DNA of 64,000 nt, taken from assembly GCA_964019415.1 (NCBI GenBank), contig OZ025887.1:4330381-4394380 (forward strand), read 5' to 3'. Below the pieces are notes generated by a model. It was not told where the DNA came from and did no database searches. It saw only the letters and a program-made list of their open reading frames with translations. Source of the DNA: Ianthella basta (Eukaryota; Porifera; Demospongiae; Verongiida; Ianthellidae). Position numbers and translations under genes: made by a program. Of the stretch, positions 1 to 31,135 are shown one piece after another (positions within the stretch are counted from its first letter, which is position 1; the number at the start of each line of letters is the position of its first letter).

Positions 1-2948
1 GTTCATGGTGAGCTGACCAACATATCCAGGTATGCCATCTGGTAGGGCATCGGATGATGTAGTTTTCAGGTTTTTTGGGTCACAAAACAGGAGATGACGG
101 GTGTAAGACACCCACAGAGAAGCGGGGCTGACAATCAGACCATTGATACAATGCTCTACAATGTAACATTGGGAAGGCTTGTTAGTGGATTGTATTGCAC
201 TCAGTGTCAGCTCATACATGAATATGTATCCCTGTATTGTTCCAATGTAGACATGGGTATCACTGCAAGTGATGCAGGATACAGCAGTATTCTTCATATG
301 TATGCGGTGCACTCGTTGACGGGTGCTAGCACTAAAAATATCCAATTGACCGACAGTTTTGGAAGCCATCCATACATTGTCTCCACATACTGCCATGCAT
401 TGTACTTGATTGTCCTTGATCATATTCTGTCTGAGGATGGCCATGTCGTCAGCCTGGTAGACGGTTATCTCCGCTCCTTTGTCACTGTCACAGCAGAGCC
501 ACAGCTCCACATTAGGAGGGTCAAGGCTATCAGTGAGTGTGGCAGGAGTGGGAGCAGCAACAGGCTGCAGTGAAGGCTTTGAGATATAGCAGCAAGCAGT
601 TTGAATAGAGTAGTCACTGGCAATTGGGTGAACTCCCATTATCAGCTTAACACTGGGCTTGGCCAGCTGTGTAAGTATCTCATCTGTTGTTGGGCGATCA
701 GTAGGTCTGTGCTTCCAGCATCTCTTCATCAGACCAGTCAGGAAATGAAAACCAGTGTGGGCAACTGGAATGTTAACAATGTGAGGCCTTATTCCCTGCT
801 CAGTGTACCTCTTGATCTTTGGTATGTCACTCTTCTTGATACTATAGAAAGGGTCGTGACGTGTAACCATTTGATACAGAACCATGGCAAATGAGAAAAT
901 GTCAGCTTTGAAATCATATGTGGCATAGCTGCGATTTCCTCCTGCAAATGCAACCTCTGGAGCAATGAATCCTGGCGCGCCACATGCACCCTTTACACCA
1001 ATTGGGCCTGAGTGGGTTGCAATACCACAGTTGGCCAATTTGCAATTGACGATGTGGTCCATATCGAGAGACCACAGTAGAACATTAGCTGCCTTCAGGT
1101 TTCGGTAGATGAAAGAGTTACTGTGAAGGAACCTGAGAGCAGACGCTACTTGGGAAGAAAGCTTGAACAGGACCACTCGAGAGATGGCTGCACCATGCTT
1201 AATGAGTGGTCCATCCAATGAGCCAAGCGGGACCTTTTCTGTGATAAGACACGGTTGAGGGAGAATCAACACACCCACCATGCACACAAGGGAGGGGTGT
1301 TGGTTTCTCTGCAGCAATTGTATTTCGTTACGAAGCTGATTCAAAGCAAAAAGATAGTCATGTTTGCTTTGCACTTTGAACAGCTTGACAGCCACGGGTA
1401 TTTTTCTACAATGACCTTGAGTTAATGCAAAAGTACCATGACCATGGGGAAAAATCAACTGGCTATCTTTCTCATATGAAACATCTCCCTCTCCAAGTAA
1501 AAAGCGTTTGTCTATGCCTGCCAACATGAGATCTGGGAAAAGGTCAGCCAGTGCCACCTTATGACCCTTGGGGCAGGTAACATGGTCAGTGCATGCTGCA
1601 ATGTACTGTACCAGGCTCTCCTTGATGAATATATATGGATCTGAGCTGCCTTCAGTGAGACACTGGTAACAAACAGCTCTTTGTTTCAACCCTTGCTCTG
1701 CCGCATGGATGCCAAGAAGGCTGGGGTACCATTCCTCTACAGTGTTTAATACTATGTCCACTAGTTGCCCATACACCTTGCAACCCTCATGTCCTGGGGT
1801 CACAACAATACACACACCGTGCAACTCCACAACACCATCCTCCTTCTTGAGGTCTTCCATTAGTAAGTACAGGTCAGGGTCACAATAGCTACATCCTGAT
1901 TTCCAGTACTTGAAGACTGCATCGCCAACCTTCATTGCAGGCACAGAGGCTGACGCTGCTACTTTTGGCTTAGCCTCCTCCCCTTGCTGCTGTGCATCTT
2001 CTGAAATTGGCCCATCATCATTGGGCTCAGTGCGCAACAGTGACTGCACAGCATCTGTATGCCGGGAGCTAGCATGCACCAACATGCCCGGTGGTTTCCC
2101 CTTTGCCTTGTTGCCTGAAGCCCCTGACCAAGTATGCCGCAGTGAGTGTGATGTGTACAAGTCGGGATGAGACTCACTCACCTCATTCGCTACCTTACCA
2201 TGGGAAGCCTCAATGAGGTCTCGTAAGCACTGGACAGTGTGCATTACTCTGGCAAGGAGTCGGCTCCAGAAGCCAGGAGGAGTGGGAACAGGGAAAAGAA
2301 CTTGCCTCTCGTGACACACCTGGTCACAGGGTCTGTCAGTGCCATCAGGTCGTACATCAGGCAGCATGGATGGGATTAGGATGTGATTCATAGATAGGTC
2401 AAGGGGAAGGGCAACTTCAAAGCAGTCCAAAAGGACTAAGTACTGATCAAGACACTCAATAGGAAATTGCATGTCACAGTACACGAGAGAAAGATGGAAC
2501 CGATTAATGATACCATTCTTGATGAATCGGTTTCTTTCATTCACTGTGACCATGAGAGACATCATCTTACACAGCCAGCAAGGATCTACAAAGTAGAGGT
2601 CATCCAGGTTGTTTTTCCTCTCATCATAGTGCAGTAGAGAGCCCACTTCATGGAGGAACAGAGTTGCAGCCTTCACCTCCTCTTTGGAGCTGATGTCAGA
2701 CAGGCTCAGAGCACTGATTAGCTGTCTGAACTCAGAAGCACGCATTATGGGAGAGCGCTTACACTGCTGGCTGTCCTTCCGAATGCGGGCAAGTCTCAAC
2801 TCCAGGTCACGGTAGCTTGCAGGGATTTGTCGACCCATCACCTTCTCACCCTTGATGGTGTAAGACTCTGCTTCTTCATAGATTATCCTCTTGAGATGAT
2901 CCAAATTCTGTAACCTCCCATGAAGAGCTACACGAGCAGTATGCATGC
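1..2948 (-). CDS. Copy 1 exon 5: COR, pseudokinase, WD40-like (partial)
   Basis: Entered in phase 1 after TTTTTTGCAG; open without a stop to position 1. The offset to copy 2 is 13573 at both ends, so no net frameshift exists. The translated motifs FIYRNLKAANV, LANCG and KIPVAVK show the same loss of catalytic aspartates as in the other copies. About 315 residues of the C-terminus lie outside the window. Confidence 0.88.
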
Positions 2949-8900: not shown

Positions 8901-11272
8901 GCCTTAAAGCTTGCAGAAGCTGCTCTTTGTTGCCATTGCGACAACATTCTTCCATTGGACGGTACAGCCTATGCATCTAGAAGATACAAGGGTGTTAAGG
9001 ATGGTTAAAATGTTCAGCAATGGTCTAGTCATGGAGAGAAACACAAGTGTACTAGGATTCCAAATATCGATTGAGTTTAGCAATACCTTTAAGCAGTAGA
9101 GGTGCTGCCATGCTCAGGAGTATATGTACACTCAGCATACATGAAAGGACATGTTGAATTTCCAACTAAAAATATTCACATACCATAACCTCACTCTCTA
9201 TGTGGGGATGGTATGGGAAGAAGTGCCTCCCCGTATAGAAACATGTAAGTAACAAAACCACAGGATGACTGCTAAACATCACCAAGCTATGTCTAGGATG
9301 TTGAGAATCGGCAAGCAAGCACTCCACAACTGCGAATGGCGATGCCCTATCCTATACACATCACAAGAGATGATTACAAGGGATAGTTTACATACCTAAG
9401 GCTATTCTTTTCCAGTCACCAAACCACAACTCACTAATGGAAACAATAATGTGCTCAGCTCAGGTACCAACTGCATGCTTCCATGGTACTATATGTGCTT
9501 TTGCATAGGGTCAGGGGTACCATTAGCAACTTGTCCCCTTAGTGGTCCTTGCCCTCTACAGCTTGCTAGTATTTCAATAGCAACCAGCAGTTACATTTTT
9601 ACTGCTATGAGCATGATACCACGTATGCTATCATTTTGGTGGGGTTAATTTTTGTGGTTTAGCAGATCAGCAACCAACCGCAAAATTCCATCCTGAGAAA
9701 ACTTACACAAGGCTTTAGCTACTGTATTCTGCCTGAGACTCGCCAACCACAAATGTTACGTAAAGCAAATACGACATGCATGTACTGTGTGTCCAATTGG
9801 TGGCAGTGTTAGTGGTATACTGTATATACCAGCTATGCATATCTACAGTACATCTCATCAAAATGACATGAAACACTGTTGGGAGCCTATAACCAACACT
9901 GGGATATTGCAAATGAAAGCAGACCCTCGGGAGGGTCCAAACCCACAGCAGGGGATACTAAACAGGTCATGTGTACTGTGACTGCTATTGCTGTAAAGTT
10001 TCCTGTGTAGCAACCCCAATGATGGCTTATTATACATAGCCAAAACCCCATCCTTTGGATAGGTTCCAGACTGTCATCCATAATTAGTCAATGGAATTGT
10101 CTATTTCAATTGCATATTTCTGCATGACCCCCTAAATTTTCTTGAGCACAGAATTTTGATTCATTTCATCTGAAGGAAGCCAGTGGCAACGATGCCAACT
10201 ACATACTGCCATGGTGAAGTCTAACATGTTTGCAGTTGATTAGTAGAAAACTGATGGAAGAGGTTGCAAAGAACCAATAAAATGACCTTTGTTTGTCATT
10301 AAATATGAAGACAAAGTATGTAAACACACAGATTTGTTTCTGGTATATTGAAGTTTACAACAAACCTATGTCTTTATTCTACAATTGTCAGACAAAAGAA
10401 CAACAATAGGAACTTACATCAGATGCCTCCGGCAGCATCAAGCTGAGGCAGAAATAGATGCTGAAAACATCAGGTCTGGCTTCAAGGTCATGCAAGCATT
10501 GCAAGATGAGAGGCTTTAACACATGGTTGTCTGAGAGCAGGGCTAGATCGGAAGCACGACGGTCCTTCTCTGGTTGTACACCGATGCCCTGTAAGCCAGA
10601 GGAGGGTAAGGGTGGTGTCTGAGTTGCAATCTGCAGCATCAGCACACCGAGGGAGAAAACATCTCCTTTGTGATTGAATTGCACCTGATGTGCAAGAGAC
10701 TCGGGAGGCATGTACACCACACATCCAGGGATGCTAGATAAGAATTCTTTGTTGGCAGGTCTGAACCTAGCTAGACCAAAGTCACTGATCTTGACAGTAT
10801 TTCCGTCCTTGTTCAGTAACACATTTTTGGCATTCAGGTCACGATGCAATATCTGGGGATTGTGCTGGTGAAGAAACTGTAGCCCGTTTGCCAGTTTGAG
10901 ACAAATTTCCAATTGCTTTGCTACAGGTAGGCCTTGATCAGTGTCCAGAAACGTTTCTAGCGTCTGATCCATCAGTTCCATAATCAACAAAACTTCTTCC
11001 CCTTCGCTGCGCCACTCAATACACTCCACAACGTGCTGGTGCTTGGCGGCATGGAGAACTTCGTACTCGCGCCTAAACTGTATGACAATAGGGTTGAGCT
11101 GCGGATCTCTATCACTTGTCCGCAGCAAATTATTGTGAATCTTCTTGACTGCCACCGGCCTAGATCCAAGCTTTCCTTGGTAGACTACGCCATAGGCTCC
11201 CCTACCAAGCTCCTTCTCTTTTCTTAAAGAGGCTCGAGAATCTGTAGGTTTGACAAACGGTGAATTTCCCAT
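1..11272 (-). CDS. Dual-kinase ankyrin-LRR-ROCO protein, array copy 1 (3' end cut by window)
   Basis: Five coding exons join in phase: 10418-11272, 8688-8976, 5939-6895, 3035-4564 and 1-2948. The last stays open to the window edge with no stop. The start is the MGN methionine at 11272, with an in-frame TGA a few codons upstream. The front kinase has an intact glycine loop, VAVKK lysine, HRDLN and DFG. The later kinase fold has YRN and NCG in place of HRD and DFG, as in the other copies. This copy differs from copies 2 and 3 at more positions than they differ from each other. The role is presumably GTP-regulated signalling or scaffolding as in LRRK/ROCO proteins; substrates are unknown. One transcript spanning all five exons is inferred from splice phases, not proven. 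Confidence 0.8.
3035..4564 (-). CDS. Copy 1 exon 4: helical module B, LRRs and ROC GTPase
   Basis: 1530 nt, phase 1 on both sides. Module B has the core LQKALMVAVENNSAVNV and is homologous to module A. Six or seven leucine-rich repeats follow (for example LEVLDLSHNELQSLP), then a ROC domain with GKQATGKTTL, TVGIDV, WDFGGQEQYY and ATFYDK. The acceptor used here is TTGCAG|CC; a second AG nine bases further in would keep frame. Confidence 0.88.
4565..5938 (-). other. Copy 1 intron 3 with pogo/Tigger-like MITE
   Basis: About 1.4 kb. A (TACG)n-like palindromic run sits near 4675-4695 and a 575-bp MITE at 4824-5398. No coding sequence is seen. Confidence 0.75.
4824..5398. mobile_element. pogo/Tigger-like MITE, unit 1
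   Basis: 575 bp bounded by TA on both sides. The ends are inverted: CAGTGGAATCCCGCC on the left and, reversed, CAGTGGAACCCCTAA on the right, with further GCGGACACC motifs inside each end. TA duplication and CAGTGGAA termini are typical of Tc1/mariner-pogo (Tigger) elements. No transposase is present, so it is non-autonomous. Confidence 0.75.
5939..6895 (-). CDS. Copy 1 exon 3: helical module A plus ankyrin repeats
   Basis: 957 nt, phase 1 on both sides (acceptor CCCTTTAG, donor G|GTGAGC). The first half is an unrecognised helical module with the core LQQALDLAVEKNSALNV. The second half has three to four ankyrin repeats (GYTPLHEAASEGQTEV, YTPLHLAASGGHSES). A serine-rich linker separates them. 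An open reading frame continues past the donor to a TGA, so a shorter product from unspliced RNA is conceivable. Confidence 0.85.
6896..8687 (-). other. Copy 1 intron 2 with MULE-like MITE
   Basis: About 1.8 kb. It contains the 726-bp terminal-inverted-repeat element at 7401-8126. Nothing else is recognised. Confidence 0.75.
7401..8126. mobile_element. MULE-like MITE, unit 1
   Basis: 726 bp with inverted ends of about 65-70 bp beginning TAGTCTC and ending GAGACTA, flanked by a perfect 9-bp duplication GGCAGGTGG (7392-7400 and 8127-8135). Long terminal repeats of this kind with a 9-bp duplication fit Mutator-like elements. No transposase is visible. Its inner ends share a GGGTCTGGTCAGA motif. 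Confidence 0.8.
8688..8976 (-). CDS. Copy 1 exon 2: ankyrin repeats
   Basis: 289 nt, entered in phase 0 after a TTCTAG acceptor and left in phase 1 at CAG|GTGAGA. It encodes about two ankyrin repeats with the hallmark TCLHIAAACGHADCV and TALHVASGDH segments, preceded by a helix pair (MEECCRNGNKEQLLQAL). It links the front kinase to the first helical module. Confidence 0.85.
8977..10417 (-). other. Copy 1 intron 1
   Basis: About 1.4 kb between the kinase and first ankyrin exons. I see no coding potential. It lacks a segment of about 180 bp near 10290 that is present in the equivalent introns of copies 2 and 3. Confidence 0.75.
10418..11272 (-). CDS. Copy 1 exon 1: N-terminal TKL-like protein kinase
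   Basis: 285 codons from the MGN start to a GTAAGT donor just below 10418, phase 0. The kinase core is complete: GRGAYG loop, VAVKK, a MELMD hinge, HRDLNAKNVLL, DFGLA, PPE, GDVFSLG helix F and the EARPDV arginine. The HRDLNAKN form resembles tyrosine-kinase-like kinases (TKL group). It has a six-base insertion relative to copies 2 and 3 in the loop after helix F. Confidence 0.9.
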
Positions 11273-12634: not shown

Positions 12635-15600
12635 CTAATCCAGGTTGGTACAGATGTGTGGGCGGTCTTGGAGTGCCAAATAGTTAACAAGCTGATCTTG
12701 ATTAGACAGCTCCTCCACTGTACCATGTTCGTTCCTCCAGAATAGTGACACACTGCCAGTGATACCACCTTGGGTGTGCACATTTTCCTGAAGCTTCTGG
12801 AGCAGCACTGGCTTCTGGCAAACTACTAAGAGTTTCTTACCATCAGGAAGAATGACAGACATATTTTCCTCAGTCTGTGATGCTGGGTCGGATTCCCACA
12901 CATCTTCTGAAGTGCTGATACACCTGGAAGTTGCAATTTGTGAACAACTTGTCATTTCTCCATCCTTGCTGGAACAAGAAAGGCGGCCGGGGGACTGTCC
13001 CATTCTCCTCTTGCTCTCTTCCCACTCCTGTTCACACTTCAGCACATTGCCATGTGAGGCCCACGTGTTTCCCTTCGCTAGTATCCTCACTTGATGCATG
13101 TAGCATGCTCTCAGAGCCTCCCATACAATCACTGTACCAGACTCTGGGGGTGAATCTTCTTTCTGTTTCTTTGCAGCATCTGATTCAAACACATCGTCAC
13201 TGACGTCCTCCAGGTACTCATTCTTGATGTACTTCTTCCCACCACTCACCACCATACACTCCTCACTCAAGCAAGGACCAGTGCTGGAAATTGGGAGAAG
13301 GAAACGAATGTACTCTTGGTAAGGTTGGAAGTGCAGAAGGAAGTCTTGCTCCTCTGAAAAGACCAGGATGTGGCCTGTGCTCATGCCGCACCACACAGTG
13401 TCCAGGGCACTGCACACAGCAGTGATGACACAGTCATTAGGCTGTGTGGCAGGCTCCACCTTCAACATAGCAGGTCCAACATCAATAGTGAACTTGAAGG
13501 TCTGTTGCAGGGTCTGCCAGGCACACAGAATGTGGCCTCTCATGGGTGCACTCCATACCAAGGACTTGCTGTTGCTCAGAGTGAGGTGACCAACATATCC
13601 CTGTATGTCATCTGGTAGGACTGTGGAAGATGCAGTTTTCAGGTTCTTTAGGTCACAAAACAGGAGATGACGGGTGTGAGACACCCACAGGGAATTGGGG
13701 CTGATAATCAGACCATTGATGCAATGCTCTGTGACGTAACACTGAGTTGGGCTGTCAGTTGATTGTATTGCACTCAGTGTTAGCTCATACATGAATATGT
13801 ATCCCTCCTTTGTTCCAATGTAGACATTGGCGTCACTGCAAGTGATGCAGGATACAGCGGTATTCGTCATACGTATGCGGTGCACTGGTTGACGGGTGCT
13901 GGCACTAAAAATATCTAGCTGACGGTTAGTTTTGGAAGCCACCCATACATTGTCTCCACACACTGCGATGCATTGAACTTGGTTGTCCTTGATCATAGTC
14001 TGTCTGAGGATGGCCATGTTGTCAGCCTGGTAGACGGTTATCTCTGCTCCTTTGTCACTGTCACAGCAGAGCCACAGCTCCACATTAGGAGGATCAAGGC
14101 TATCAGTGAGTGTGGCGGGAGTGGGAGCAGCAACAGGCTGCAGTGAAGGCTTTGAGATATAGCAGCAGGCAGTTTGAATAGAGTAGTCACTGGCAATTGG
14201 GTGGACTCCCATTATCAGCTTAACACTGGGCTTGGCTAGCTGTGCAAGTATCTCATCTGTTGTTGGGCGATCAGTATGCCTGTGCTTCCAGCATCTCTTC
14301 ATCAGACCAGTCAGGAAATGAAAACCAGTGTGGGCAACTGGAATGTTAACAATGTGAGGCCTTATTCCTTGCTCAGTGTACCTCTTGATGTTTGGTATGT
14401 CACTCTCCTTGATACTATAGAAAGGGTCGTGACGTGTAACCATTTGATACAGAACCATGGCAAATGAGAAAATGTCAGCTTTGAAATCATATGTGGCATA
14501 GCTGCGATTCCTTCCTGCAAATGCAACCTCTGGAGCAATGAATCCTGGTGTGCCACATGCACCCTTTACACCAATTGGGCCTGAGTGGGTTGCAATACCA
14601 CAGTTGGCCAATTTGCAATTGACGATGTGGTCCATATCCAGAGACCACAGTAGAACATTAGCTGCCTTCAGGTTTCGGTAGATGAAAGAGTTACTGTGAA
14701 GGAACCTGAGAGCAGATGCTACTTGGGAAGAAAGCTTGAACAGGACCACTCGGGAGATGGCTGCACCATGCTTTATGAGTGGTCCATCCAATGAGCCAAA
14801 CGGGACCTTTTCTGTGATAAGACACGGTTGAGGGAGAATCAACACACCCATCATGCACACAAGGGAGGGGTGCTGGTTTCTCTGCAGCAATTGTACTTCA
14901 CTACGAAGCTGATTCAAAGCAAATAGATAGTCATGTTTGCTTTGCACTTTGAACAGCTTGACAGCCACGGGTATTTTTCTACAATGACCATGAGTTAATG
15001 CAAAAGTACCATGACCATGGGGAAAACTCAACTGGCTATCTTTCTCATATGAAACATCTCCCTCTCCAAGTAAAAAGCGTTTGTCTATACCTGCCAACAT
15101 GAGATCTGGGAAAAGGTCAGCCAGTGCCACCCCATGACCCTTGGGGCAGGGAATATGGTCAGTGCATGCTGCAATGTACTGTACCAGGCTGTCCTTGATG
15201 AATATATATGGATCTGAGCTGCCTTCGGTGAGACACTGGTAACAAACAGCTCTTTGTTCCAACCCTTGCTCTGCCGCATGGATGCCAAGAAGGCTGGGGT
15301 ACCATTCCTCTACGGTGTTTAATACTATGTCCACTAGTTGCCCATACACCTTGCAACCCTCATGTCCTGGGGTCACAACAATACACACACCGTGCAACTC
15401 CACAACACCATCCTCCTTCTTGAGGTCTTCCATTAGAAAGTACAGGTCAGGGTCACAATAGCTACATCCTGATTTCCAGTACTTGAAGACTGCATCGCCA
15501 ACCTTCATTGCAGGCACAGAGGCTGATGCTGCTACTTTAGGCTTAGCCTCCTTCCCCTGCTGCTGTGCATCTTCTGAAATTGGCCCATCATCATTGGGCT

Positions 15601-16521
15601 CCGTGCGCAACAGTGACTGCACAGCATCTGTATGCCGGGAGCTAGCATGCATCAACATGCCTGGAGGTTTTCCCTTTGCCTTGGTGTCTGAAGCCCCTGA
15701 CCAAGTATGCCGCAGTGAGTGTGATGTGTACAAGTCGGGATGAGACTCACTCACCTCATTCGCTACCTTACCATGGGAAGCCTCAATGAGGTCTCGTAAG
15801 CACTGGACAGTGTGCATTACTCTGGCAAGGAGTCGGCTCCAGAAGCCAGGAGGAGTGGGAACAGGGAAAAGAACTTGCCTCTCGTGACACACCTGGTCAC
15901 TGGGTCTGTCGGTGCCATCAGGTCGTACATCAGGCAGCATGGATGGGATTAGGATGTGATTCATAGATAGGTCAAGGGGAAGGGCAACTTCAAAGCAGTC
16001 CAAAAGGACTAAGTACTGATCAAGACACTCAATAGGAAATTGCATGTCACAGTACACGAGAGAAAGATGGAAGCGATTAATGATACCATTCTTGATGAAT
16101 CGGTTTCTTTCATTCACTGTGACCATGAGAGACATCATCTTACACAGCCAGCAAGGATCTACAAAGTAGAGGTCATCCAGGTTGTTTTTCCTCTCATCAT
16201 AGTGCAGTAGAGAGCCCACTTCATGGAGGAACAGAGTTGCAGCCTTCACCTCCTCTTTGGAGCTGATGTCAGACAGGCTTAGAGTGCTGATCAGCTGTCT
16301 GAACTCAGAAGCACGCATTATGGGAGAGCGCTTACACTGCTGGCTGTCCTTCCGAATGCGGGCAAGTCTCAACTCCAGGTCACGGTAGCTTGCAGGGATT
16401 TGTCGACCCATCACCTTCTCACCCTTGATAGTGTAAGACTCTGCTTCTTCATAGATTATCCTCTTGAGGTTATCCAAATTCTGTGACCTCCCATGAAGAG
16501 CCACACAAGTAATACAGATGC
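12635..16521 (-). CDS. Copy 2 exon 5: COR, Cys-rich linker, pseudokinase, WD40-like C-terminus
   Basis: 3887 nt, one uninterrupted frame ending HICTNLD-stop at 12635. COR occupies the first third. A linker holds VCYQCL and CPKGHG cysteine/histidine pairs, as in LRRK1-like proteins. In the kinase fold the VAVK lysine and the APE motif remain but the catalytic Asp is Asn (YRN) and the metal-binding Asp is Asn (NCG), so phosphotransfer is unlikely. WD40-like repeats follow. An upstream methionine codon in this frame lies in the preceding 86-bp intron and is not the start. Confidence 0.92.
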
Positions 16522-19500
16522 CTGCAAAAAAGAAGAAATTCATCATTTGAGGTACAGTATGCACACTGTATATACACAACCACAACCACATGTTTAAGCT
16601 CAAATACCTTGCAATTTCTTCCAATAGGATTGGGCTAGTTGTCTGACTTGCTGCAGAAGTTGGTCCACTTTGCCACCGTCTGCCTGGTCCTCCTGTGAGA
16701 CCTTGTCATAGAAGGTAGCAACAATGATCACCTTCGAGTTGGGAGCTCTGAGGGCAATGTTGTCCAGCCATGGTTTCAGCTCACGAACCCCTTCCTCTCC
16801 ATGGGTGATGTTCCAGACTAGGAGATACAGTGAACGCTCTGTCAGGAAACACTGGTGTGTGGCATAATACTGTTCCTGCCCACCAAAATCCCAAACACTG
16901 AAAGTGAAGGTTTGCTTCAAAACCTTTGGTCTATACTGCCACTCACTAACATCAATTCCAACCGTTGACCTGTAGTTACCTTCTTTAACATTCTTCCGCT
17001 GGAGTCGAGCCACCAAAGTGGTCTTACCTGTTGCTTGTTTACCACAGAGAATGAGCTTCATGCGGTAATACTCTCGTGTATTCCTGAACTTCTGATTCAG
17101 GTATGTTATACAGTGCTCTGTATCGATTCGAATATCCTTGGGCGGATTATTTATATCATCAAGACCTTCCAGATTAAGGGTTGTGAGGTTCTGAAGCCGG
17201 CCCATTTCCACAGGTAGCTTCAGAATATCTGCATTGTGACCAAGCGCCAAAGTTGTCAGAGTGGTGAAGGAGCAAATACACTTGGGCACCTGTCGAAACT
17301 TGTTGTGATTAATGCGGAGGCACTTTAGATTGGGAGCTTCACAGTACTCAGGCAGGGACTGCAGCTCATTGTGAGACAGGTCCAGTACCTCAAGTGATGT
17401 AGCCCAATAATAAACCTCAGGGATCTCCTGAAGTTTGTTGCGGGAAATATTCAAGTCTACAATGCAGGGAAGCTCAAGAAGGCAGCGAGGAATCTCTCTC
17501 AGCAAATTGGACTGGAGATTAATCTTAGTTACACATTTCAAGTAGCTACCAATCTGTGGGGGCAACGTCTTGAAGCCATTCCTAGCCAGCTGAAGCTTCT
17601 TCACCCAGTGAATACGCTTCAGCCAAGAAACCTCCAGCTCAATTAGCTGAAGGTCATGCCACAAAACTGTACCCTCAGCCCTGTTGGTGTCAGTTCTTAG
17701 CAGCAACTCTTCACGGACTGCCACCCGCCTTTCTCTATGAGCAACTGCAATAGGAACAGCAGTGGCAACTTGCTTCTCCTGAATGGCTGACTGGATTGCA
17801 TGCAAGTCAGGATCACGAGTCAGAGGGCTGCTTTTGTTGGGAACACTGGTTCCATACAAAGTAGCCACCAAATTCACGTCATCATCGTATGCTGCTTGCA
17901 CTAGTAGAAGCATTGCACGCACGACATGAGACTTCATCTCTGTAGCATAGGTGAGTGCAGCTTTGATGTCCAGAGACTCTCGACCCTTAATGATGATCTT
18001 ACCCACATTTACAGCACTATTATTCTCAACAGCTACCATGAGAGCCTTTTGTAGGCAAGTGCTGTCAAGTGATTCTTTGGGAACTGCAAGCAACTGATCA
18101 AACCTTGCAGAGTTGCTCTCCACAGCTCTGATGATGGCTGCAAGGTGGATGGAAGGAAGTCAAAATCAAACATGGTTGCAACACACAGAAATTAATCCAA
18201 AAAGCAGACTAAAGCACAATATAGCATAGCATACAAATCACATTCTACCTACGTACGTACGTATATATCTAACAGACATCACTGATAAAAGACTACTCCC
18301 ATGATAATGTAATAGCAGGCCTCAGTGAAACTATAGCTGAATGAAGGCAGCAAAGAACAATTGAAGGCCAGGGATGGGCTTCTTTCAACGTTTAGTGGAA
18401 TCCCGCCTTGCGGACACCCCTGAAGAGCGGACACTTTCTAAAGTCCCAACGATTGGCCCTATTCTACCTGTATAAGCTTCCCCTTGAAATGCGGACACCC
18501 CGTTATTCCGTATTGCGGACAACGCCCTGTGCACCGCCCTATACAACTCTGTATAAAACTCACCCGATAATCCGGACATTTCGATCAGCTGACAGAAAAT
18601 GGCTGCTCCCTGATTTGCACTGCTACCTCTGACAAGTGACAGGGACAGCACAGAAGTTGACGAGTGCCGCAAATTGTCTAAACTAAGGGTTTTGAAAGTG
18701 TCTTTAACATGGAAAAGTTCAGCGCGAACAGCTACCCTTCTGAATCGTCTTCAGAAATGGTGCATGAGTCGAGTACTCAAGCGAACCACCTCTACCTTTG
18801 CAAATTCGTCTTATTTTGATACTTTTCATGCATACTAGATGGTGGTTTTAACGTATGGGCATATAAACCGTACCTCTGAAATGCGGACACCCCTATAATC
18901 AGGACACTTCTCTTGTTCCGAAGGGTGTCCGCATTTTAGGGGTTCCACTGTACTGAAGATAGCAATGCACCCACCAGCCTGGAGTACATATAACAGAAGG
19001 CACCATAGGTCACAGTACTGTTACCCCATTTTGCCTTTCATATCATTCTCCTTCTCCCCACTAATTTCCATGTGCTCCTAGCACATGATACAGGACACTT
19101 AAGGACCTAAGTCATGTACAAGCACTTGTATATGGTAGTGAAGGATGAAGGTCTGAGCTCTGCGTAGCAATCCAATTGGTACAGTGTCGTAGTGAGTTCG
19201 GAGTGTGTTCTCCCATGCATTAACATACCCCAATGCCTCCATATTGTTGGGTTCAGTACTTACACAAGTTACCTACATTCATCTACAGAATTGCCAAGGT
19301 ACGTATAATGTAGATTACCAAGCGACAGAATTTAGACTTCTTTCAGCTGACTACGGATCATTCAAAAGGCTCCACATGGACGTTCATGCAGGTTCCATGG
19401 GTAAATATCAAGAAAGTGATTCAAACTATGCATACGCATGTATCTCCCTTACAACAAATGCATACAGGTGTGCATCAGATTGGAGGCTCACCATATGATT

Positions 19501-22500
19501 TGAGGATCTTCTCTACTTCGGTCTTTGCAGCGAGCTGGGCTGTTTCAAGGGGTGTCTTCTGATGCTCATCCTTGGCAGTCAGGTCAGCTCCATGTTCTAG
19601 CAGGAGTCTGGCGCTTTCTGAGTGACCTCCAGAAGCAGCCAGGTGTAGAGGTGTGTACCTGCTGCTTGCCTCAGCATTGACTGGACCATGTTCCTTTAGA
19701 AGGAGCTCAAGGACTTCTGTTTGTCCTGCACTTGCAGCCTCATGGAGTGGTGTGTAGCCGAAGACACCCAGCTTCTCATTCAGCTTAGTTTTGATGTCCA
19801 CTTTGATTGCTCTCATTGCGCTTAGTAGCTCTTTCACCTTCTCAACGTGGCCTTCATTGCAGTACCCATGCAGCCGATGCTCAGCCACTGCCCTACGCAA
19901 CCCAGGTGAGTCATGTGAACCATCGTCACCTGGAAAAGGGAGTTCCTGGGCCACAGCATCATTGCTGCTGGAACTACTACTGAGACCTACCCTCATGGGA
20001 GAAGAACGAATAGATTCTACAGCATTGCAAAATGCCATATGTTTGTGTTGTCGAGCAACTTCTAAAAGAATACTAATTGGGAACTCCTCATTATCAAGTA
20101 CAGCTTGAATGTGAGGGAGATCTGGATCATTGGTAACTGGAACATCGGTAGTTTCCTTCCCAAAGAGTGCTAGCACTTGCTGGGAGTCATCTGTGTAAGC
20201 TGCTTGTAGCATTCGCAGAACTGTGTATGCACCATACGCCTGAATCTCTTTTGCGCGAGCGAGACTTTTATCGATGTCGGGCAGTTTGTGGGTACCTTTG
20301 GCTAGCTGTGCTACATTCAGAGCACTGTCTTTCTCAACTGCCAAGTCTAAAGCCTGCTGAAGGTGTTCAACTTCAAACAAATCATTTGGAAACTCACACA
20401 CAATATTCAACATTTCAGTAGAGCCCTTCTGTATGGTTTTGAGAGTGGCTAAAGGGAGAGGAATTACAGCATACATTAAAGCTACACAAGCATAGATATG
20501 AATATCTGCAGTACAAAGTCAAATCTATCTAATGCAGGCACACAACAACAAACAAGTATACTGTATGCTGCATCTCTCATGCAGATAGGCAACTGTAATA
20601 CACAATAGAATGAAGGTTTAAAAATCACGCACTTATAGAGCAGTGTATACATGGCATACATTATAGCAGTTGAGGGCACACACACCAATATACATGTATC
20701 TGCATATGTACTGAGGGCTCATGGCAGTCTGTAACAGTATTATGGGCTGAAGCTAAGTACGCAGAATACATACTGTGTACACAGGTTTCTGAGCCCCTCG
20801 TCTGGCAACTACTTGGTGCAAGCAGAGACTAGACAAAAAGGTTCATTCAATAGACTATTAGCATCAATCCATCTATCGAATCCGGTGCAATACACCCCAC
20901 ATGTGAGTCATCTCATAGTGAACCTGACTTTGTTCGACTCATTTGCGCAACACCAGTAGCCGTGGGCAGGTGGTAGTCTCGCGCGCCAGTCCCTATTATT
21001 GCACAATCGCGTATTGAATAGGGTCTGGTCAGATTTGACATGTTCTTGGGATCTCTACTGGAATTTGAGTAGACCAATCAGATTGCAGGAAAGGTGTTTG
21101 TGGTTAACAAAATCCTTTGATCTTGGACAAGGGAGCATGCTGCTCTTCAGAAAGAAGGTTTTCCACCTCTTCAGGGAGTTGTGTACTCTGGATTCTGGGT
21201 TTCGGCGTGCTGGAGTGAGTCCATAAAGAGCGGCGAGACGGAAATAGGTACTTTAGCCCAGTGACAAAGCTGTGCGTTGACTAGAGAGTTGCAGTGTAGT
21301 GGGACGAGCTACAACTTCGACTATTCGCTCGTTGAGGACGCGTTCCAGTATATTGTGACCCTCTGGCAGATGAGCAGCTCTCTCACTTAAGTGTACCGTC
21401 CAGTTTGACTCCTCCAACAGCCGCACATGACAACTGACAACTTTGTGTACTGGCGAAATCGACAGCAATATCACCGAACGCTTCTTCCCTACAACACTGA
21501 GTAGTTTGCAGCATTCACCATGGCTGCTTCTGGTCCTGCTGACCGTATAATCCAAAGCTCTAAAGTGGCTTTGATGACGTCACACATTCCGCACATTCCA
21601 TGGTGACCCAGGAACCGGTCAAGTCTGACCAGACCCTATTTCTCTGCGATTGCGCAATAAGGGAAATAGGGGCTGGCGTGTGAGACTAGGCAGGTGGTTG
21701 CATGGTGACGCAGGGTATGATTGTAATCGCATTAGGCCTTCAGACAAGAATAGCAATAAAACAACAGCACGTTTGAGAAATGAAGATTAAATTGTACAGA
21801 CAATTGGAGTGCAAATTAAATGGCCAATGGAGTCTTCGGTGATGCCAATTACAGTGGTCCCACACTGTGAAATTTAAAAGCATGTTTGGGACGAAGTTTA
21901 CTTACCTTCCTACATGACCTTGACAATAAATTCATGTGGGAAGTGCAGAAGCAAAATGACAGATGAGCAGCATACTGTTGCTTAGTCAGTGTGAGAGTGT
22001 CAGTCACAAGTGAATTTCTCCTGAATAGTAATTGAAAGTGCAGTGAAACTTTCAGGCAGGCTTTCTGCTTTAAGATGCCACGGCTTGGCACTGAAAACAA
22101 ATTTTGTTTCAACGCTCTATTGACAGGAGGCTTCAATTATCACCTCCAAAATCAGAGGATACTGCACAAGCTGTATGCAGGCATCATACCAGACCCTTTC
22201 CCAATGCAATACTAACATATAATCAGTTACCTATAGAATCTCACCTGCTGAGTGGAGACATTTCAGAACATGGTCACCACTGGCCACATGCAGTGCACTG
22301 GCTCCTTCGTCATTCTTTAGAAAGCAGTCAGCTCCCTTGTCCAAGAGTTCTTGGACACAGTCTGCATGTCCACAGGCAGCTGCAATGTGAAGGCAAGCGT
22401 CACCACTGTCCTGGTTCTGCTGGTTCAGATTAAAAGGGAGGTTAAGTTTCTCAGCCAGCCTTAAAGCTTGCAGAAGCTGCTCTTTGTTGCCATTGCGACA

Positions 22501-25500
22501 ACATTCTTCCATTGGACGGTACAGCCTATGCATCTAGAACATACAAAGGTGTTAAGGATGGTTAAAATGTTCAGCAATGGCCTAGTTATGGAGAGAAACA
22601 CAAGTGTACTAGGATTCCAACTATCGATTGAGTTTAGCAATACCTTTAAGCAGCAGAGGTGCTGCCATGCTGCTCAGGAGTATGAGTACACTCAGCAGTA
22701 CATTTAGGGTACTCAGCATACAGTACATGAAAGGACATGTTGAATTTCCAACTAAAAATATCACATACCATAACCTCACTCTGTATGTGGGGATGATAAG
22801 AGAACTAGCACTGCCCCTTATAGAAATGTGCAAGAAACAACATCATAGGATGACTGCCAAACATCACGAAACTACGTATGTCTAGGATGTCGAGAATTGG
22901 CAAGCAAGCACTCCACAACTGTGAACAGTGATGATCCTATCCTACACACATCACAAGAGATGATTACAAGGGATTGTTTACATATACTTTTCCAGTCACC
23001 AAACCACAACTCACTAATGGAAACAGTAATGTGCTTAGCTCAGGTACCAACTGCATGCTTCCATGGTACTATATGCGCTTTAGTATAGGGTCAGGGGTAC
23101 CATTAGCAACTTGTCCCCTTAGCGGTCCTCGCCTTCTATAGCTTGCTGGTGTTTCAATAGCAATCAGCAGTTACATCTTTACTGCTATGGGTATTGATAT
23201 CACTAGCTGAATGCCCGCCCTTCGGGTGGGTTCTCAGTCTACAGTTGGTAATTTGAGTGTTGAACCAATCAAAACTGTCCATTCGATTGGTAGCATTCCG
23301 CAGACTCGCTCCGTAAAACTCCGTGCATACAGAATTTACTTATGCTAATCCATTTCGTGTAAAGGAGTTCAGTAGCGAAGGCACTAACCACCTTAGGTCA
23401 CCCCCCGTATTGCCGTAATATACTCTTCCAAGTTTGGCAAAGATTGATGAAAAATTGAGGGAGGAGTTTCTGGACAACGAAATACGATCTTTTCCCTATC
23501 TCTTAGATATAACGGCGACCGTAAAAGTGGCAAGAACTCTGATGGAACGACCTTAAACCAAATTTTGGCTTGGCGAGGTTACTCACAGTATGCCTCTTTG
23601 TAATCCTACCAAGTTTCATGACATTCTGTCCAGAGTTGAAGGAGAATATCCTGAACAATGAAATTGTGTATTACGTTTATTATAATAAGATGTACACTAT
23701 CAATTTCGCGGGGTTAAACTTTCACAGTTTTTGCAGATCAGCAACCATCCATGATAGTTTCATCCTGAGAAAACTTACGCAAAGCTTTTCTGCCTGAGAC
23801 TCTGCAACTGCAAAAGTTACGTAAAGTGAATACGCCGTGCATGTACTGTGTGTCTAATTGGTGGCAGTGTTAACTGTATACTATATACCAGCTAAGCATA
23901 TCTATAGTGCATCTCATCAAAATGACACGAGACACTGATGGGAGCCTATAACCAACATGGGATTATGAAAATGAAAGCAGACCTTTGGGAAGGTCCAAAC
24001 CCACAACAGGGGAGATTCAACAGGTCATGTGTACTGTGACTGCTATTGCTGTAAGGTTTCCTGTGTAGCAACCCCAATGATGGCTTATTATACACAGCCA
24101 AAACCCCATCCTTTGGATAGGTTTCAGACTGTCAGCCATAATTAGTCAATGGAATTGTCTATTTTAATTGCACATTTCTGTATGACCCCATACATTTTCT
24201 TGAGCACAGAATTTTGATTCAATTCATCTAAAGGAAGCCAGTGGCAACTACGCCAATTTCCTACTAACGTGATGAAGTCTGACATGTTTGCTGTTGATTA
24301 GTAGAAAACTGATGGAAGAGTTTGCAAAGAACCAAACTATGACCTTCATTGAGATATTGTATGCGACAACCATAAAGTTGCAAGTACAGTACTCAGGCAG
24401 AATGACTTTAAATCAATGTTGGTCTCTCCCAACACCTCCCTATATTCCTACCACATTCAGTGACCATTTGTCATGAACTGAAGGAGCATTCCCGAAACCA
24501 TTACGTACATTACCAAAGCTTAATATGCAAAGAACGTAGACATAAATAAAATGACCTTCGTTAGTCATCAAAAAGGAAGACAAACAAAGTATGCCAGCAC
24601 ACAGATGTGTTTCTGGTATATTGAAGTTTACAACAAACCTATGTCTTTGTTCTACAATTGACAGACAAAGGAACAATTATAGGAACTTACATCAGATGCC
24701 TCCGGCAGCATCAAGCTGAGGCAGAAATAGATGCTGAAAACATCAGGTCTGGCTTCAAGGTCATGCAAGCATTGCAAGATGAGGGGCTTTAACACATGGT
24801 CGTCTGGGAGCAGGGCTAAATCAGATTCACGACGGTCCTTCTCTGGTAGTACACCGATGCCCTTTAAGTTATAAGAGGGTGATGTCTGAGTTGCAATCTG
24901 CAGCATCAGCACACCATGGGAGAAAGCGTCTCCTTTGTGATTGAATTGCACATGATCTGCAAGAGACTCGGGAGGCATGTACATCACACACCCAGGCCTG
25001 CTAGATACAAAGTCTTTGTCGATAGGTAGGAACCTAGCTAGACCAAAGTCACTAATCTTGACAATATTCCCGTCCTTGTTCAGCAACACATTTTTGGCAT
25101 TCAGGTCACGATGCAATATCTGGGGATTGTGCTGGTGAAGAAACTGCAGCCCGTTCGCCAGTTTGAGACAAATTTCCAATTGCTTTGCTACAGGTAGGCC
25201 TTTATTAGTGTTCAGAAACGTTTCTAGCGTCTGATCCATCAGTTCCATAATCAACAATACGTCTTCCCCTTCGCTGCGCCACTCAATGCACTCCACAACG
25301 TGCTGGTGCTTGGCGGCATGGAGAACTTCGCACTCACGCCTAAACTGTATGACAATAGGGTTGAGCTGCGGATCTCCATCAGCTGTCCGCAGCAAATTAT
25401 CGTGAATCTTCTTGACTGCCACCGGCCTAGATCCAAGCTTTCCTTGGTAGACTACGCCATAGGATCCCTTCCCAAGCTCCTTCCCTATGGTTAAAGAGGC

Positions 25501-25539
25501 TGGGGGATCTGTAGGGTTGACAAACTGTAAATTTCCCAT
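12635..25539 (-). CDS. Dual-kinase ankyrin-LRR-ROCO protein, array copy 2 (complete, 2503 aa inferred)
   Basis: Exons 24691-25539, 22245-22533, 19492-20448, 16608-18137 and 12635-16521 total 7512 nt including the stop. Approximate residue layout: TKL-like kinase 19-272 (glycine loop 22-27, K43, HRD 143-145, DFG 164-166); ankyrin 295-375; helical module A 380-550; ankyrin 570-698; module B 699-850; LRR 878-1023; ROC 1057-1208 (P-loop GKQATGKT, switch WDFGGQE); COR from 1209; pseudokinase about 1691-1960 (VAVK lysine 1730, YRN 1823-1825, NCG 1848-1850, APE 1871-1873); WD40-like 2015-2400. The ROC-COR-kinase-WD40 order is that of LRRK1/LRRK2, and ankyrins before LRRs suggest LRRK1. The front kinase is extra. 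The MGN start could be myristoylated, though the residue at position 6 is not the usual serine or threonine. Family placement is firm; function is inferred. Confidence 0.85.
16608..18137 (-). CDS. Copy 2 exon 4: helical module B, LRRs and ROC GTPase
   Basis: 1530 nt, phase 1 on both sides. Same domain order as copy 1. The last residues before the splice (QVRQLAQSYWKKLQ) differ from copy 1 (QVDQLIKLYQKKLQ) but match copy 3. The visible difference from copy 3 is S versus N near residue 99 of the reading frame. P-loop and switch II residues are intact, so GTP binding is plausible. Confidence 0.9.
18138..19491 (-). other. Copy 2 intron 3 with pogo/Tigger-like MITE
   Basis: About 1.35 kb with the 558-bp MITE at 18393-18950. 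No coding sequence is seen. Confidence 0.75.
18393..18950. mobile_element. pogo/Tigger-like MITE, unit 2
   Basis: The same element at the same intron position, 558 bp. It has lost 17 bp near the left end and its first base has changed (TAGTGGAA). Unit 3 shares both changes. Confidence 0.72.
19492..20448 (-). CDS. Copy 2 exon 3: helical module A plus ankyrin repeats
   Basis: 957 nt, phase 1 on both sides, the same splice sites as copy 1. Module A core LQQALDLAVEKDSALNV, serine-rich linker, then ankyrin repeats ending at the KSY residues before the donor. It is almost identical to copy 3; one visible difference is EHRLHGYC against EQRLHGYC. Confidence 0.86.
20449..22244 (-). other. Copy 2 intron 2 with MULE-like MITE
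   Basis: About 1.8 kb, containing the 715-bp element at 20974-21688. Otherwise similar to copies 1 and 3. Confidence 0.75.
20974..21688. mobile_element. MULE-like MITE, unit 2
   Basis: 715 bp, the same insertion as in unit 1 with the same GGCAGGTGG duplication (20965-20973 and 21689-21697). It differs from the unit 1 copy by substitutions and small indels. Confidence 0.8.
22245..22533 (-). CDS. Copy 2 exon 2: ankyrin repeats
   Basis: 289 nt, phase 0 in and phase 1 out. It is nearly identical to the copy 1 exon (TCLHIAAACGHADCV appears as ACLHIAAACGHADCV) and clearly closer to it than to copy 3. It supplies two ankyrin repeats between the front kinase and module A. Confidence 0.85.
22534..24690 (-). 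other. Copy 2 intron 1 with private insertion
   Basis: About 2.2 kb, the longest of the three equivalents, because it carries the insertion at 23196-23690. No coding sequence is recognised. Confidence 0.7.
23196..23690. mobile_element. Unit-2-specific insertion of unknown type
   Basis: About 0.5 kb absent from units 1 and 3, inside intron 1. It begins near a CCCGCCCTTCGGGTGGG hairpin. It contains two diverged internal stretches, near 23430-23480 and 23610-23660, that resemble each other (CCAAGTTTGGCAAAG versus CCAAGTTTCATGACA, then GACAACGAAAT versus GAACAATGAAAT). It ends in an A/T-rich run. I cannot assign a family or exact duplication. Confidence 0.5.
24691..25539 (-). CDS. Copy 2 exon 1: N-terminal TKL-like protein kinase
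   Basis: 283 codons, MGN start, GTAAGT donor in phase 0. Motifs: GKGSYG, VAVKK, HRDLNAKNVLL, DFGLA, PPE. Helix F reads GDAFSHG where copies 1 and 3 have GDVFSLG; the structural aspartate is kept. The N-terminal leader differs from copies 1 and 3 (MGNLQFVNP versus MGNSPFVKP). Confidence 0.9.
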
Positions 25540-27248: not shown

Positions 27249-30200
27249 CTAATCCAGGTTGGTACAGATGTGTGGGCGGTCTTGGAGTGCCAAATAGTTA
27301 ACAAGCTGATCTTGATTAGACAGCTCCTCCACTGTACCATGTTCGTTCCTCCAGAATAGTGACACACTGCCAGTGATACCACCTTGGGTGTGCACATTTT
27401 CCTGAAGCTTCTGGAGCAGCACTGGCTTCTGGCAAACTACTAAGAGTTTCTTACCATCAGGAAGAATGACAGACATATTTTCCTCAGTCTGTGATGCTGG
27501 GTCGCATTCCCACACATCTTCTGAAGTGCTGATACACCTGGAAGTTGCAATTTGTGAACAACTTGTCATTTCTCCATCCTTGCTGGAACAAGAAAGGCGG
27601 CCGGGGGACTGTCCCATTCTCCTCTTGCTCTCTTCCCACTCCCGTTCACACTTCAGCACATTGCCATGTGAGGCCCACGTGTTTCCCTTCGCTAGTATCC
27701 TCACTTGATGCATGTAGCATGCTCTCAGAGCCTCCCATACAATCACTGTACCAGACTCTGGGGGTGAATCTTCTTTCTGTTTCTTTGCAGCATCTGATTC
27801 AAACACATCGTCACTGACATCCTCCAGGTACTCATTCTTGATGTACTTCTTCCCACCACTCACCACCATACACTCCTCACTCAAGCAAGGACCAGTGCTG
27901 GAAATTGGGAGAAGGAAACGAATGTACTCTTGGTAAGGTTGGAAGTGCAGAAGGAAGTCTTGCTCCTCTGAAAAGACCAGGATGTGGCCTGTGCTCATGC
28001 CGCACCACACAGTGTCCAGGGCACTGCACACAGCAGTGATGACACAGTCATTAGGCTGTGTGGCAGGCTCCACCTTCAACATAGCAGGTCCAACATCAAT
28101 AGTGAACTTGAAGGTCTGTTGCAGGGTCTGCCAGGCACACAGAATGTGGCCTCTCATGGGTGCACTCCATACCAAGGACTTGCTGTTGCTCAGAGTGAGG
28201 TGACCAACATATCCGGGTATGTCGTCTGGAAGTAGTGCGGAAGATGTAGTTTTCAGGTTCTTTGGGTCACAAAACAGGAGATGACGGGTGTGAGACACCC
28301 ACAGGGAATTGGGGCTGATAATCAGACCATTGATGCAATGCTCTGTGATGTAACACTGAGTTGGGCTGTCAGTTGATTGTATTGCACTCAGTGTTAGCTC
28401 ATACATGAATATGTATCCCTCCTTTGTTCCAATGTAGACATGGGTATCACTGCAAGTGATGCAGGATACAGCGGTATTCGTCATACGTATGCGGTGCACT
28501 GGTTGACGGGTGCTGGCACTAAAAATATCTAGCTGACGGTTAGTTTTGGAAGCCACCCATACATTGTCTCCACACACTGCGATGCATTGAACTTGGTTGT
28601 CCTTGATCATAGTCTGTCTGAGGATGGCCATGTTGTCAGCCTGGTAGACAGTTATCTCTGCTCCTTTGTCACTGTCACAGCAGAGCCACAGCTCCACATT
28701 AGGAGGATCAAGGCTATCAGTGAGTGTGGCGGGAGTGGGAGCAGCACAAGGCTGCAGTGAAGGCTTTGAGATATGGCAGCAGGCAGTTTGAAGAGAGTAG
28801 TCACTGGTAATAGGGTGAACTCCCATCATCAGCTTAACACTGGGCTTGGCTAGCTGTGCAAGTATCTCATCTGTTGTTGGGCGATCAGTATGCCTGTGCT
28901 TCCAGCATCTCTTCATCAGACCAGTCAGGAAATGAAAACCAGTGTGGGCAACTGGGATGTTAACAATGTGAGGCCTTATTCCTTGCTCAGTGTACCTCTT
29001 GATGTTTGGTATGTCGCTCTCCTTGATACTATAGAAAGGGTCGTGACGTGTAACCATTTGATACAGAACCATGGCAAATGAGAAAATGTCAGCTTTGAAA
29101 TCATATGTGGCATAGCTGCGATTCCTTCCTGCAAATGCAACCTCTGGAGCAATGAATCCTGGTGTGCCACATGCACCCTTTACACCAATTGGGCCTGAGT
29201 GGGTTGCAATACCACAGTTGGCCAATTTGCAATTGACGATGTGGTCCATATCGAGAGACCACAGTAGAACATTAGCTGCCTTCAGATTTCGGTAGATGAA
29301 AGAGTTACTGTGAAGGAACCTGAGAGCAGATGCTACTTGGGAAGAAAGCTTGAACAGGACCACTCGGGAGATGGCTGCACCATGCTTTATGAGTGGTTCA
29401 TCCAATGAGCCAAACGGGACCTTTTCTGTGATAAGACACGGTTGAGGGAGAATCAACACACCCATCATGCACACGAGGGAGGGGTGCTGGTTTCTCTGCA
29501 GCAATTGTACTTCATTACGAAGCTGATTCAAAGCAAATAGATAGTCATGTTTGCTTTGCACTTTGAACAGCTTGACAGCCACGGGTATTTTTCTACAATG
29601 ACCATGAGTTAATGCAAAAGTACCATGACCATGGGGAAAACTCAACTGGCTATCTTTCTCATATGAAACATCTCCCTCTCCAAGTAAAAAGCGTTTGTCT
29701 ATACCTGCCAACATGAGATCTGGGACAAGGTCAGCCAGTGCCACCTCATGACCCTTGGGGCAGGGAATATGGTCAGTGCATGCTGCAATGTACTGTACCA
29801 GGCTGTCCTTGATGAATATATATGGATCTGAGCTGCCTTCGGTGAGACACTGGTAACAAACAGCTCTTTGTTCCAACCCTTGCTCTGCCGCATGGATGCC
29901 AAGAAGGCTGGGGTACCATTCCTCTACAGTGTTTAATACTATGTCCACAAGTTGCCCATACACCTTGCAACCCTCATGTCCTGGGGTCACAACAATACAC
30001 ACACCGTGCAACTCCACAACACCATCCTCCTTCTTGAAGTCTTCTATTAGAAAGTACAGGTCAGGGTCACAATAGCTACATCCTGATTTCCAGTACTTGA
30101 AGACTGCATCGCCAACCTTCATTGCAGGCACAGAGGCTGACGCTGCTACTTTTGGCTTAGCCTCCTCCCTTTGCTGCTGTGCATCTTCTGAAATTGGCCC

Positions 30201-31135
30201 ATCATCATTGGGCTCAGTGCGCAACAGTGACTGCACAGCATCTGTATGCCGGGAGCTAGCATGCACCAACATGCCCGGTGGTTTCCCCTTTGCCTTGTTG
30301 CCTGAAGCCCCTGACCAAGTATGCCGCAGTGAGTGTGATGTGTACAAGTCGGGATGAGACTCACTCACCTCATTCGCTACCTTACCATGGGAAGCCTCAA
30401 TGAGGTCTCGTAAGCACTGGACAGTGTGCATTACTCTGGCAAGGAGTCGGCTCCAGAAGCCAGGAGGAGTGGGAACAGGGAAAAGAACTTGCCTCTCGTG
30501 ACACACCTGGTCACTGGGTCTGTCGGTGCCATCAGGTCGTACATCAGGCAGCATGGATGGGATTAGGATGTGATTCATAGATAGGTCAAGGGGAAGGGCA
30601 ACTTCAAAGCAGTCCAAAAGGACTAAGTACTGATCAAGACACTCAATAGGAAATTGCATGTCACAGTACAAGAGAGAAAGATGGAAGCGATTAATGATAC
30701 CATTCTTGATGAATCGGTTTCTTTCATTCACTGTGACCATGAGAGACATCATCTTACACAGCCAGCAAGGATCTACAAAGTAGAGGTCATCCAGGTTGTT
30801 TTTCCTCTCATCATAGTGCAGTAGAGAGCCCACTTCATGGAGGAACAGAGTTGCAGCCTTCACCTCCTCTTTGGAGCTGATGTCAGACAGGCTTAGAGTG
30901 CTGATCAGCTGTCTGAACTCAGAAGCACGCATTATGGGAGAGCGCTTACACTGCTGGCTGTCCTTCCGAATGCGGGCAAGTCTCAACTCCAGGTCACGGT
31001 AGCTTGCAGGGATTTGTCGACCCATCACCTTCTCACCCTTGATGGTGTAAGACTCTGCTTCTTCATAGATTATCCTCTTGAGGTTATCCAAATTCTGTGA
31101 CCTCCCATGAAGAGCCACACAAGTAATACAGATGC
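27249..31135 (-). CDS. Copy 3 exon 5: COR, Cys-rich linker, pseudokinase, WD40-like C-terminus
   Basis: 3887 nt in one frame, same stop context (HICTNLD) as copy 2. Substitutions relative to copy 2 are few (for example CAAPTPATL for VAAPTPATL, LIEDFKKED for LMEDLKKED). YRN and NCG replace HRD and DFG here too. The offset to copy 2 is 14614 at both ends, so no length change. Confidence 0.92.

Follow-up and report, generated by a model that had tools for sequence, protein, structure and literature searches.

Tandem LRRK-type genes of the sponge Ianthella basta with an intact front kinase and a predicted, selectively maintained rear pseudokinase

Introduction

Roco proteins form three groups, of which that of DAPK1 (group 3) alone has a kinase before Roc-COR, and DAPK1 is without LRR; LRRK2 and LRRK1 (group 2) share the order ankyrin, LRR, Roc, COR, kinase and WD40 (PMC6337361). 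The aspartate of the LRRK2 YRD motif is D1994, and the same study indicates that the state of the kinase domain governs microtubule docking, out of step with activity (PMC8201809). LRRK2 D2017A is inactive, its docking to microtubules is lost or strongly reduced, and it samples a more open state, according to two reports (PMC6660771, PMC8201809). Since docking is set by the kinase state, a conformational role for a dead domain is credible, and the loss of docking in D2017A means that a DFG-dead domain need not retain every non-catalytic role. In the JAK kinases an active and a dead kinase share one chain, the dead one first; to our knowledge neither these nor the plant tandem kinase-pseudokinases carry Roc-COR, LRR or WD40. 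The plant proteins, such as wheat Yr15, likewise unite an active kinase with a dead one in a single polypeptide, as predicted here (PMC6170490). Exon shuffling is described for brown algal ROCO genes (PMC11378527).

Here we describe three tandem, putatively double-kinase LRRK-type genes (A, B and C) on the minus strand of a stretch of 64,000 nucleotides, hereafter the window (C20:4330381-4394380). Their COR-to-kinase part matches LRRK2 best, but unlike LRRK2 and LRRK1 they add an N-terminal kinase, and their C-terminal kinase is altered at the positions of D1994 and D2017 and in the glycine loop. The laboratory mutant D2017A lacks the same DFG-position aspartate, whereas in A, B and C, three germline genes under purifying selection, asparagine takes its place and the HRD aspartate and the glycine loop are lost as well. 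As in DAPK1 a kinase stands ahead of Roc-COR; however, A, B and C have LRR and a rear pseudokinase, and a place in group 3 is not indicated, with LRR present and no death domain found in a Pfam scan of exons 1, 3, 4 and 5. Among the literature matches listed, judged by titles and the openings of abstracts and with most subscription papers outside the scope, no LRRK/Roco protein with a second, N-terminal kinase and no natural LRRK pseudokinase is described.

Materials and Methods

The genome of the same organism (209 Mb, 96 contigs) was searched with the rear exon, giving 41 matches (36 of 386 first-look candidates scored), and with the front exon, giving 132 scored matches of 942 candidates, the weakest listed at 215 bits. 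The best 30 of the 41 rear-exon matches were taken as loci, and the other 11, all weaker, were left out. Rear kinases were readable in 13 cases, including L027, which is the C-lobe exon alone. Left out of the 13 were broken pieces (L015/L017, L016/L021/L022/L026 and L012/L014/L018/L030), parts of L009, L010 and L011 (L013, L019 and L020), loci matching outside the kinase only (L024, L025 and L028), and L029, which was taken as another kinase (32% identity). Codon-model omega values came from IQ-TREE checkpoint files, and three-point omega was computed by hand from pairwise values. An AlphaFold model of the rear domain, run with six window kinases, was discarded at a mean pLDDT of 38.

Results

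Each of the three copies has five exons with GT/AG borders and a single open frame, in the order front kinase; ankyrin-like; ankyrin; LRR-Roc; COR-rear kinase-WD40 (Table 1). The gene models of B and C are 2503 aa each with no internal stops, and A is truncated at the window edge. DNA identity among the copies is 95-98% across the rear 7-9.6 kb and about 90% across the front exon region; as near-identical tandem duplicates, they were counted as one event of rear-kinase loss. The Pfam scan of exons 1, 3, 4 and 5 identified Pkinase (E 1.9e-31 for the kinase after COR), Ank, LRR, Roc (2e-24) and COR-A (3e-13), and WD40 matches in exon 5 were weak, under the Pfam cut-offs. The Roc motifs look intact by sequence, with GKQATGKT, WDFGGQE and TFYDK present in exon 4 of copy B.

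Table 1. Positions within the window of the exons and altered kinase motifs of copies A, B and C.
Feature	Position	Strand	Remarks
Copy A, exon 5	1..2948	-	dead rear kinase (predicted); WD40 end beyond window, whole exon in L003
Copy A, DFG-position Asn	1030-1032	-	AAC; NCG starts at 1032
Copy A, HRD-position Asn	1099-1101	-	AAC
Copy A, exon 1	10418..11272	-	front kinase intact
Copy B, exon 5	12635..16521	-	COR, rear pseudokinase, WD40
Copy B, rear kinase domain	14207..15076	-	LRRK position; predicted catalytically dead
Copy B, NCG replacing DFG	14597..14605	-	AAC TGT GGT (GAC TTT GGT in L004, L005, L006)
Copy B, DFG-position Asn	14603-14605	-	AAC
Copy B, HRD-position Asn	14672-14674	-	AAC (intact paralogues GAC)
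Copy B, broken glycine loop	14993..15025	-	FPHGHGTFALT (consensus LGxGxFGxV)
Copy B, exon 4	16608..18137	-	LRR and Roc GTPase
Copy B, exon 3	19492..20448	-	ankyrin repeats
Copy B, exon 2	22245..22533	-	ankyrin-like; acceptor TTCTAG, incoming phase 0, outgoing phase 1; ~30% identity to exon 3 repeats (tblastn)
Copy B, exon 1	24691..25539	-	ATG and intact front kinase (HRDLNAKN, DFG); donor GTAAGT, phase 0
Copy C, exon 5	27249..31135	-	with dead rear kinase (predicted)
Copy C, DFG-position Asn	29217-29219	-	AAC; NCG starts at 29219
Copy C, HRD-position Asn	29286-29288	-	AAT
Copy C, exon 1	37896..38744	-	front kinase intact

Some other features of the window were noted. The intron between exons 2 and 3 holds an insertion of about 0.7 kb in copy B (20975-21688) and copy A (about 7402-8126), with short inverted ends AGTCTC...GAGACT and the direct repeat GGCAGGTGGT flanking both sides, whereas the corresponding site of copy C, at about 35579-35588, is empty; the insertion is a small mobile element. 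In the intron between exons 3 and 4, repeated 'gcggacaccc'-like motifs and inverted ends, seen by eye at 18380-18960, probably mark a second one. A minus-strand open frame of 922 codons (54898-57666) had no Pfam match at E 0.001.

The best solved-structure match of the rear exon is LRRK2 (E 7.9e-64). The alignment and the codons bear out what the initial annotation had read from the three window copies: YRD is replaced by YRN and DYG by NCG in A, B and C alike, the asparagines aligning with D1994 and D2017 respectively, while VAVK, APEV, the helix-F aspartate and DRPT match LRRK2. The tyrosine of YRN is ordinary for LRRK2, which itself has YRD. The beta-3 lysine, alpha-C glutamate, catalytic-loop asparagine, APE, helix-F aspartate and helix-I arginine are retained. 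A lesion absent from that annotation is the glycine loop, which is broken in all three copies and reads LGQGGFGTVF in L004, L005 and L006. A pseudokinase is a kinase-related domain in which one or more of the VAIK lysine, HRD aspartate and DFG aspartate are missing, and here two of these three residues are gone. Because both catalytic aspartates and the glycine loop are lost, phosphotransfer by the rear domain is predicted to be very unlikely, in agreement with the earlier expectation from the aspartates. Roc-COR, the LRR and ankyrin ahead of Roc, and a kinase fold followed by WD40 are as in LRRK proteins, but the catalytic residues of the C-terminal kinase are not; given YRN, NCG and the broken glycine loop, we class A, B and C as LRRK-type on the grounds of their architecture and descent and not of predicted kinase activity.

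The initial annotation had both aspartates lost in every copy, which holds for the recent triplet of the window but not for the genome, where the HRD aspartate is kept in 7 of 13 rear kinases (L004, L005, L006, L008, L009, L010 and L027). It is gone in the other six: A, B, C and L007 (YRN), L011 (YRG) and L023 (YRA). The DFG aspartate is gone in four (A, B, C and L023, the last with NFN), and L007 combines YRN with DFS. Glycine loop, YRD, catalytic-loop asparagine and DFG are all kept in L004, L005, L008, L009 and L010. In L006 (C20:4276430-4280317) both aspartates are kept and aspartate replaces the catalytic-loop asparagine (KAAD), perhaps a separate weakening. No relatives from outside the genome appeared in scans of genome contigs and viral contigs, two sets that are not eukaryote genome collections.

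On C20, full copies of the front exon stand upstream of six LRRK genes, one per gene (A, B, C, L005, L006 and L007), and the only other match there is a broken copy with a stop (4288017). HRDLN and DFG are present in 6/6, so that the intact front motifs first reported for the window extend to the whole cluster. Among these six genes, then, both rear aspartates are gone in three (A, B and C), YRN stands with DFS in L007, and both aspartates are kept in L005 and L006. The 132 listed matches include none beside L004, L008, L009, L010, L011 or L023, although weaker kinases would escape this list. For L004, tblastn of 10 kb upstream also found nothing, the part covered not including about 8.7 kb that separate its ankyrin exon from its LRR exon; 10 kb upstream of L008 were read as well, and for L009, L010, L011 and L023 the absence refers to the genome search only. 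The close relatives L004, L008 and L009, for which no front kinase was found, have intact rear kinases, and L011 and L023 are distant relatives that have lost the HRD aspartate. A rear kinase with YRN and NCG and no front kinase, which the initial annotation had named as the case that would separate the loss from the fusion, was not found in this genome.

In a tree with 23 further family members sampled from 126, the six front kinases group together to the exclusion of the rest (100/100). The simplest history is consequently a single capture, the source being a large kinase family that has expanded in tandem on other contigs. The best solved-structure matches are mixed (an EGFR entry, IRAK4, TNNI3K). 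The catalytic loop HRDLNAKN is without lysine two residues after the aspartate and has lysine four after it, the position at which tyrosine kinases have arginine. The 132 scored places of the family lie mostly on C3 and C11 (L038-L060), many closely spaced, and many of the 23 open frames begin with MG by eye, which might suit N-myristoylation.

The exon 1 donor follows EASD in phase 0 in 6/6 genes (GTAAGT or GTAAGA), and the sequence past it differs between A/B/C/L006, L005 and L007. A TAG acceptor immediately precedes exon 2 in all six, and the first codon behind it is ATG in A and B, GTG in C, ATA in L005 and CTG in L006 and L007; a codon so variable behind a constant acceptor is not a conserved translation start. 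Exons 1, 3, 4 and 5 are open also in L005, L006 and L007, exon 3 of L006 and L007 being without the ankyrin half. This argues strongly that the front exon is spliced in frame onto the LRRK core, as predicted from the in-frame exon 1-exon 2 splice sites of 6/6 genes; a fusion transcript would be expected from each, joining a kinase and a pseudokinase except in L005 and L006, which carry the aspartates in both kinases. On the minus strand an open frame of 396 codons (L036) adjoins the front exon of L007 and resembles part of a retrotransposon protein by eye.

In the rear-kinase tree, computed with the motif columns removed, L004, L005 and L006 form a clade (96/96), L008 and L009 lie outside, and L007 and A-C stand in an unresolved fork. 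Because the fused genes L005 and L006 still have the two rear aspartates, fusion most simply came before rear loss, and L004, nested with them, would most simply have lost its front kinase. The HRD codon changed from GAC to AAC, and the DFG codons from GAC TTT GGT to AAC TGT GGT in A-C and to GAC TTT AGT in L007. From the trees, the HRD aspartate may have been lost once or twice in A-C and L007: their clade has support of 66/60 in the kinase tree and 47/19 in the C-lobe tree and does not appear in the best tree of COR plus kinase, on which the change counts twice, and AU tests rejected none of the arrangements (p 0.07 to 0.37). The front kinase of L006, in contrast to its rear kinase, groups with A-C (100/99), and the AU test rejects a front tree in which A-C and L007 are kept together (p 1.8e-9). 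This conflict indicates that fronts and rears have been recombined, front exons having passed between genes whose rear kinase is live and genes whose rear kinase is dead.

Exon 5 is itself a mosaic. In its 60-codon glycine-loop block, A and B share only 49-62% DNA identity with L007, L004 or L006. Identity between paralogues is 94-96% in the block directly past the kinase and mostly 82 to 97% in later WD40 blocks, apart from one block that has 45% against L004 and L006. Between B and L007, dS is 0.18 in WD40 and 0.71 in the kinase. The dead kinase therefore lies within an older diverged block whose flanks on both sides were exchanged later. At the kinase-WD40 border (WD40 parts 12635-14206 and 27249-28820) paralogue identity rises from about 78-90% to 94-96%, a jump that points to gene conversion.

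Among A, B and C the dead rear kinase shows 16 synonymous and 14 non-synonymous changes and departs from neutrality (P 0.0004, 0.0015 and 0.0048 at kappa 1, 2 and 4), counts that assume independence and would be disturbed by gene conversion between copies, which is likely. The C-lobe alone is significant (P 0.0006-0.004) and the N-lobe alone is not (P 0.17-0.34). Even the dead HRD codon carries a synonymous difference (AAC/AAT). Codon-model omega of the rear kinase is 0.36 for A-C, 0.37 with L007, 0.59 for L004-L006 and 0.23 with L008 and L009 added; three-point omega is about 0.30 in the A-C lineage, 0.27 in L007 and 0.42 in the intact L004 lineage. The front kinase of A-C has, by counts resting on the same assumption, 28 synonymous and 58 non-synonymous changes (P 0.03, 0.13 and 0.32 at the same kappa values), and omega of 0.78 (0.45 for all six). 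Contrary to expectation, constraint among A, B and C is lower on the front kinase than on the dead rear one.

Discussion

Purifying selection on the dead domain (omega about 0.3-0.4) points to a maintained pseudokinase and not a relic, and an LRRK-type core with a dead, selection-maintained kinase is well supported by the sequences analyzed here. The explanation that we consider probable overall is that A, B and C belong to a double-kinase type of ROCO/LRRK gene (front kinase - ankyrin - LRR - Roc - COR - rear pseudokinase - WD40) in which the rear kinase is kept as a non-catalytic element of the core and the front kinase supplies any phosphotransfer. An ancestral LRRK-type gene would have captured the front exon once, most simply, from the large kinase family, and tandem duplication of the fused gene would then have built up the array. 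The rear kinase would have lost its catalytic aspartate in one part of this array (A, B, C and, to a lesser extent, L007), and A, B and C would further have lost the DFG aspartate and the glycine loop. Within the Roc-COR-kinase-WD40 core, the rear domain most likely holds domains together and transmits the GTP state, a scaffold or allosteric role; the persisting selection fits the regulatory or scaffold pseudokinase initially suggested. Any phosphotransfer by the protein would come from the front kinase, possibly as sole catalyst, and the weak front constraint in A-C is odd for such a catalyst.

The initial annotation went further and proposed a swap of labour, catalysis having moved to the front kinase. 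The sequences support this in part: the order of events fits, insofar as fusion most simply preceded the losses, every front kinase of the cluster is intact, and it is plausible that a front kinase made rear loss possible. However, L005 and L006 carry catalytic aspartates in both kinases, and there is no statistical link between death and fusion in this family. These genes also favor an alternative that we regard as possible but rather unlikely, namely that rear loss was unrelated to the front kinase, some paralogues becoming scaffolds, decoys or dampers while intact L004, L005, L008, L009 and L010 catalyse in trans. The loss of the HRD aspartate in L011 and L023, where no front kinase was found, and the swapping of front exons between live and dead genes point the same way and, with the lower constraint on the A-C front kinase, weaken the proposed swap. 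Against unrelated loss, the deaths among the seven closest genes fall on fused ones and the sole unfused gene (L004) is intact, numbers that are too small to decide.

That the rear kinase is a relic decaying without function appears highly improbable to us. Damage to glycine loop, HRD and DFG together would suit decay, as would the broken copies in the same genome (L015/L017, L016/L026, L012/L014/L030) and an N-lobe compatible on its own with neutrality; yet the frame is intact in 3/3 copies, the whole domain is under purifying selection (P 0.0004-0.005), and three-point omega in A-C and L007 is not above that of the intact L004 lineage. We give still less credence to a rear domain active by an unusual route or restored by A-to-I RNA editing. 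The lysine, alpha-C glutamate and catalytic-loop asparagine do remain, and the intact GAC differs from AAC by one G-to-A step that A-to-I editing could reverse (AAC read as GAC; AAT of copy C is also editable), but the change of the DFG phenylalanine to cysteine and the broken glycine loop are beyond repair by editing. A bolder extension of the maintained-pseudokinase reading, which we offer as speculation with little expectation that it will hold, is that the dead LRRK kinase would be a GTP-gated regulator of a swappable front kinase in one-chain kinase-pseudokinase GTPases, the fronts recombining along the tandem array and the dead core being kept, as in evolving innate sensors.

In conclusion, one tandem family offers a natural graded series in which the rear kinase is intact, half dead or fully dead, with and without a second kinase. 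LRRK2 is the Parkinson's protein, and how far its biology depends on catalysis, and how far on the shape of its kinase domain, is still an open question of medical relevance. Selection that retains a dead LRRK-type kinase points to a testable non-catalytic job of this domain.
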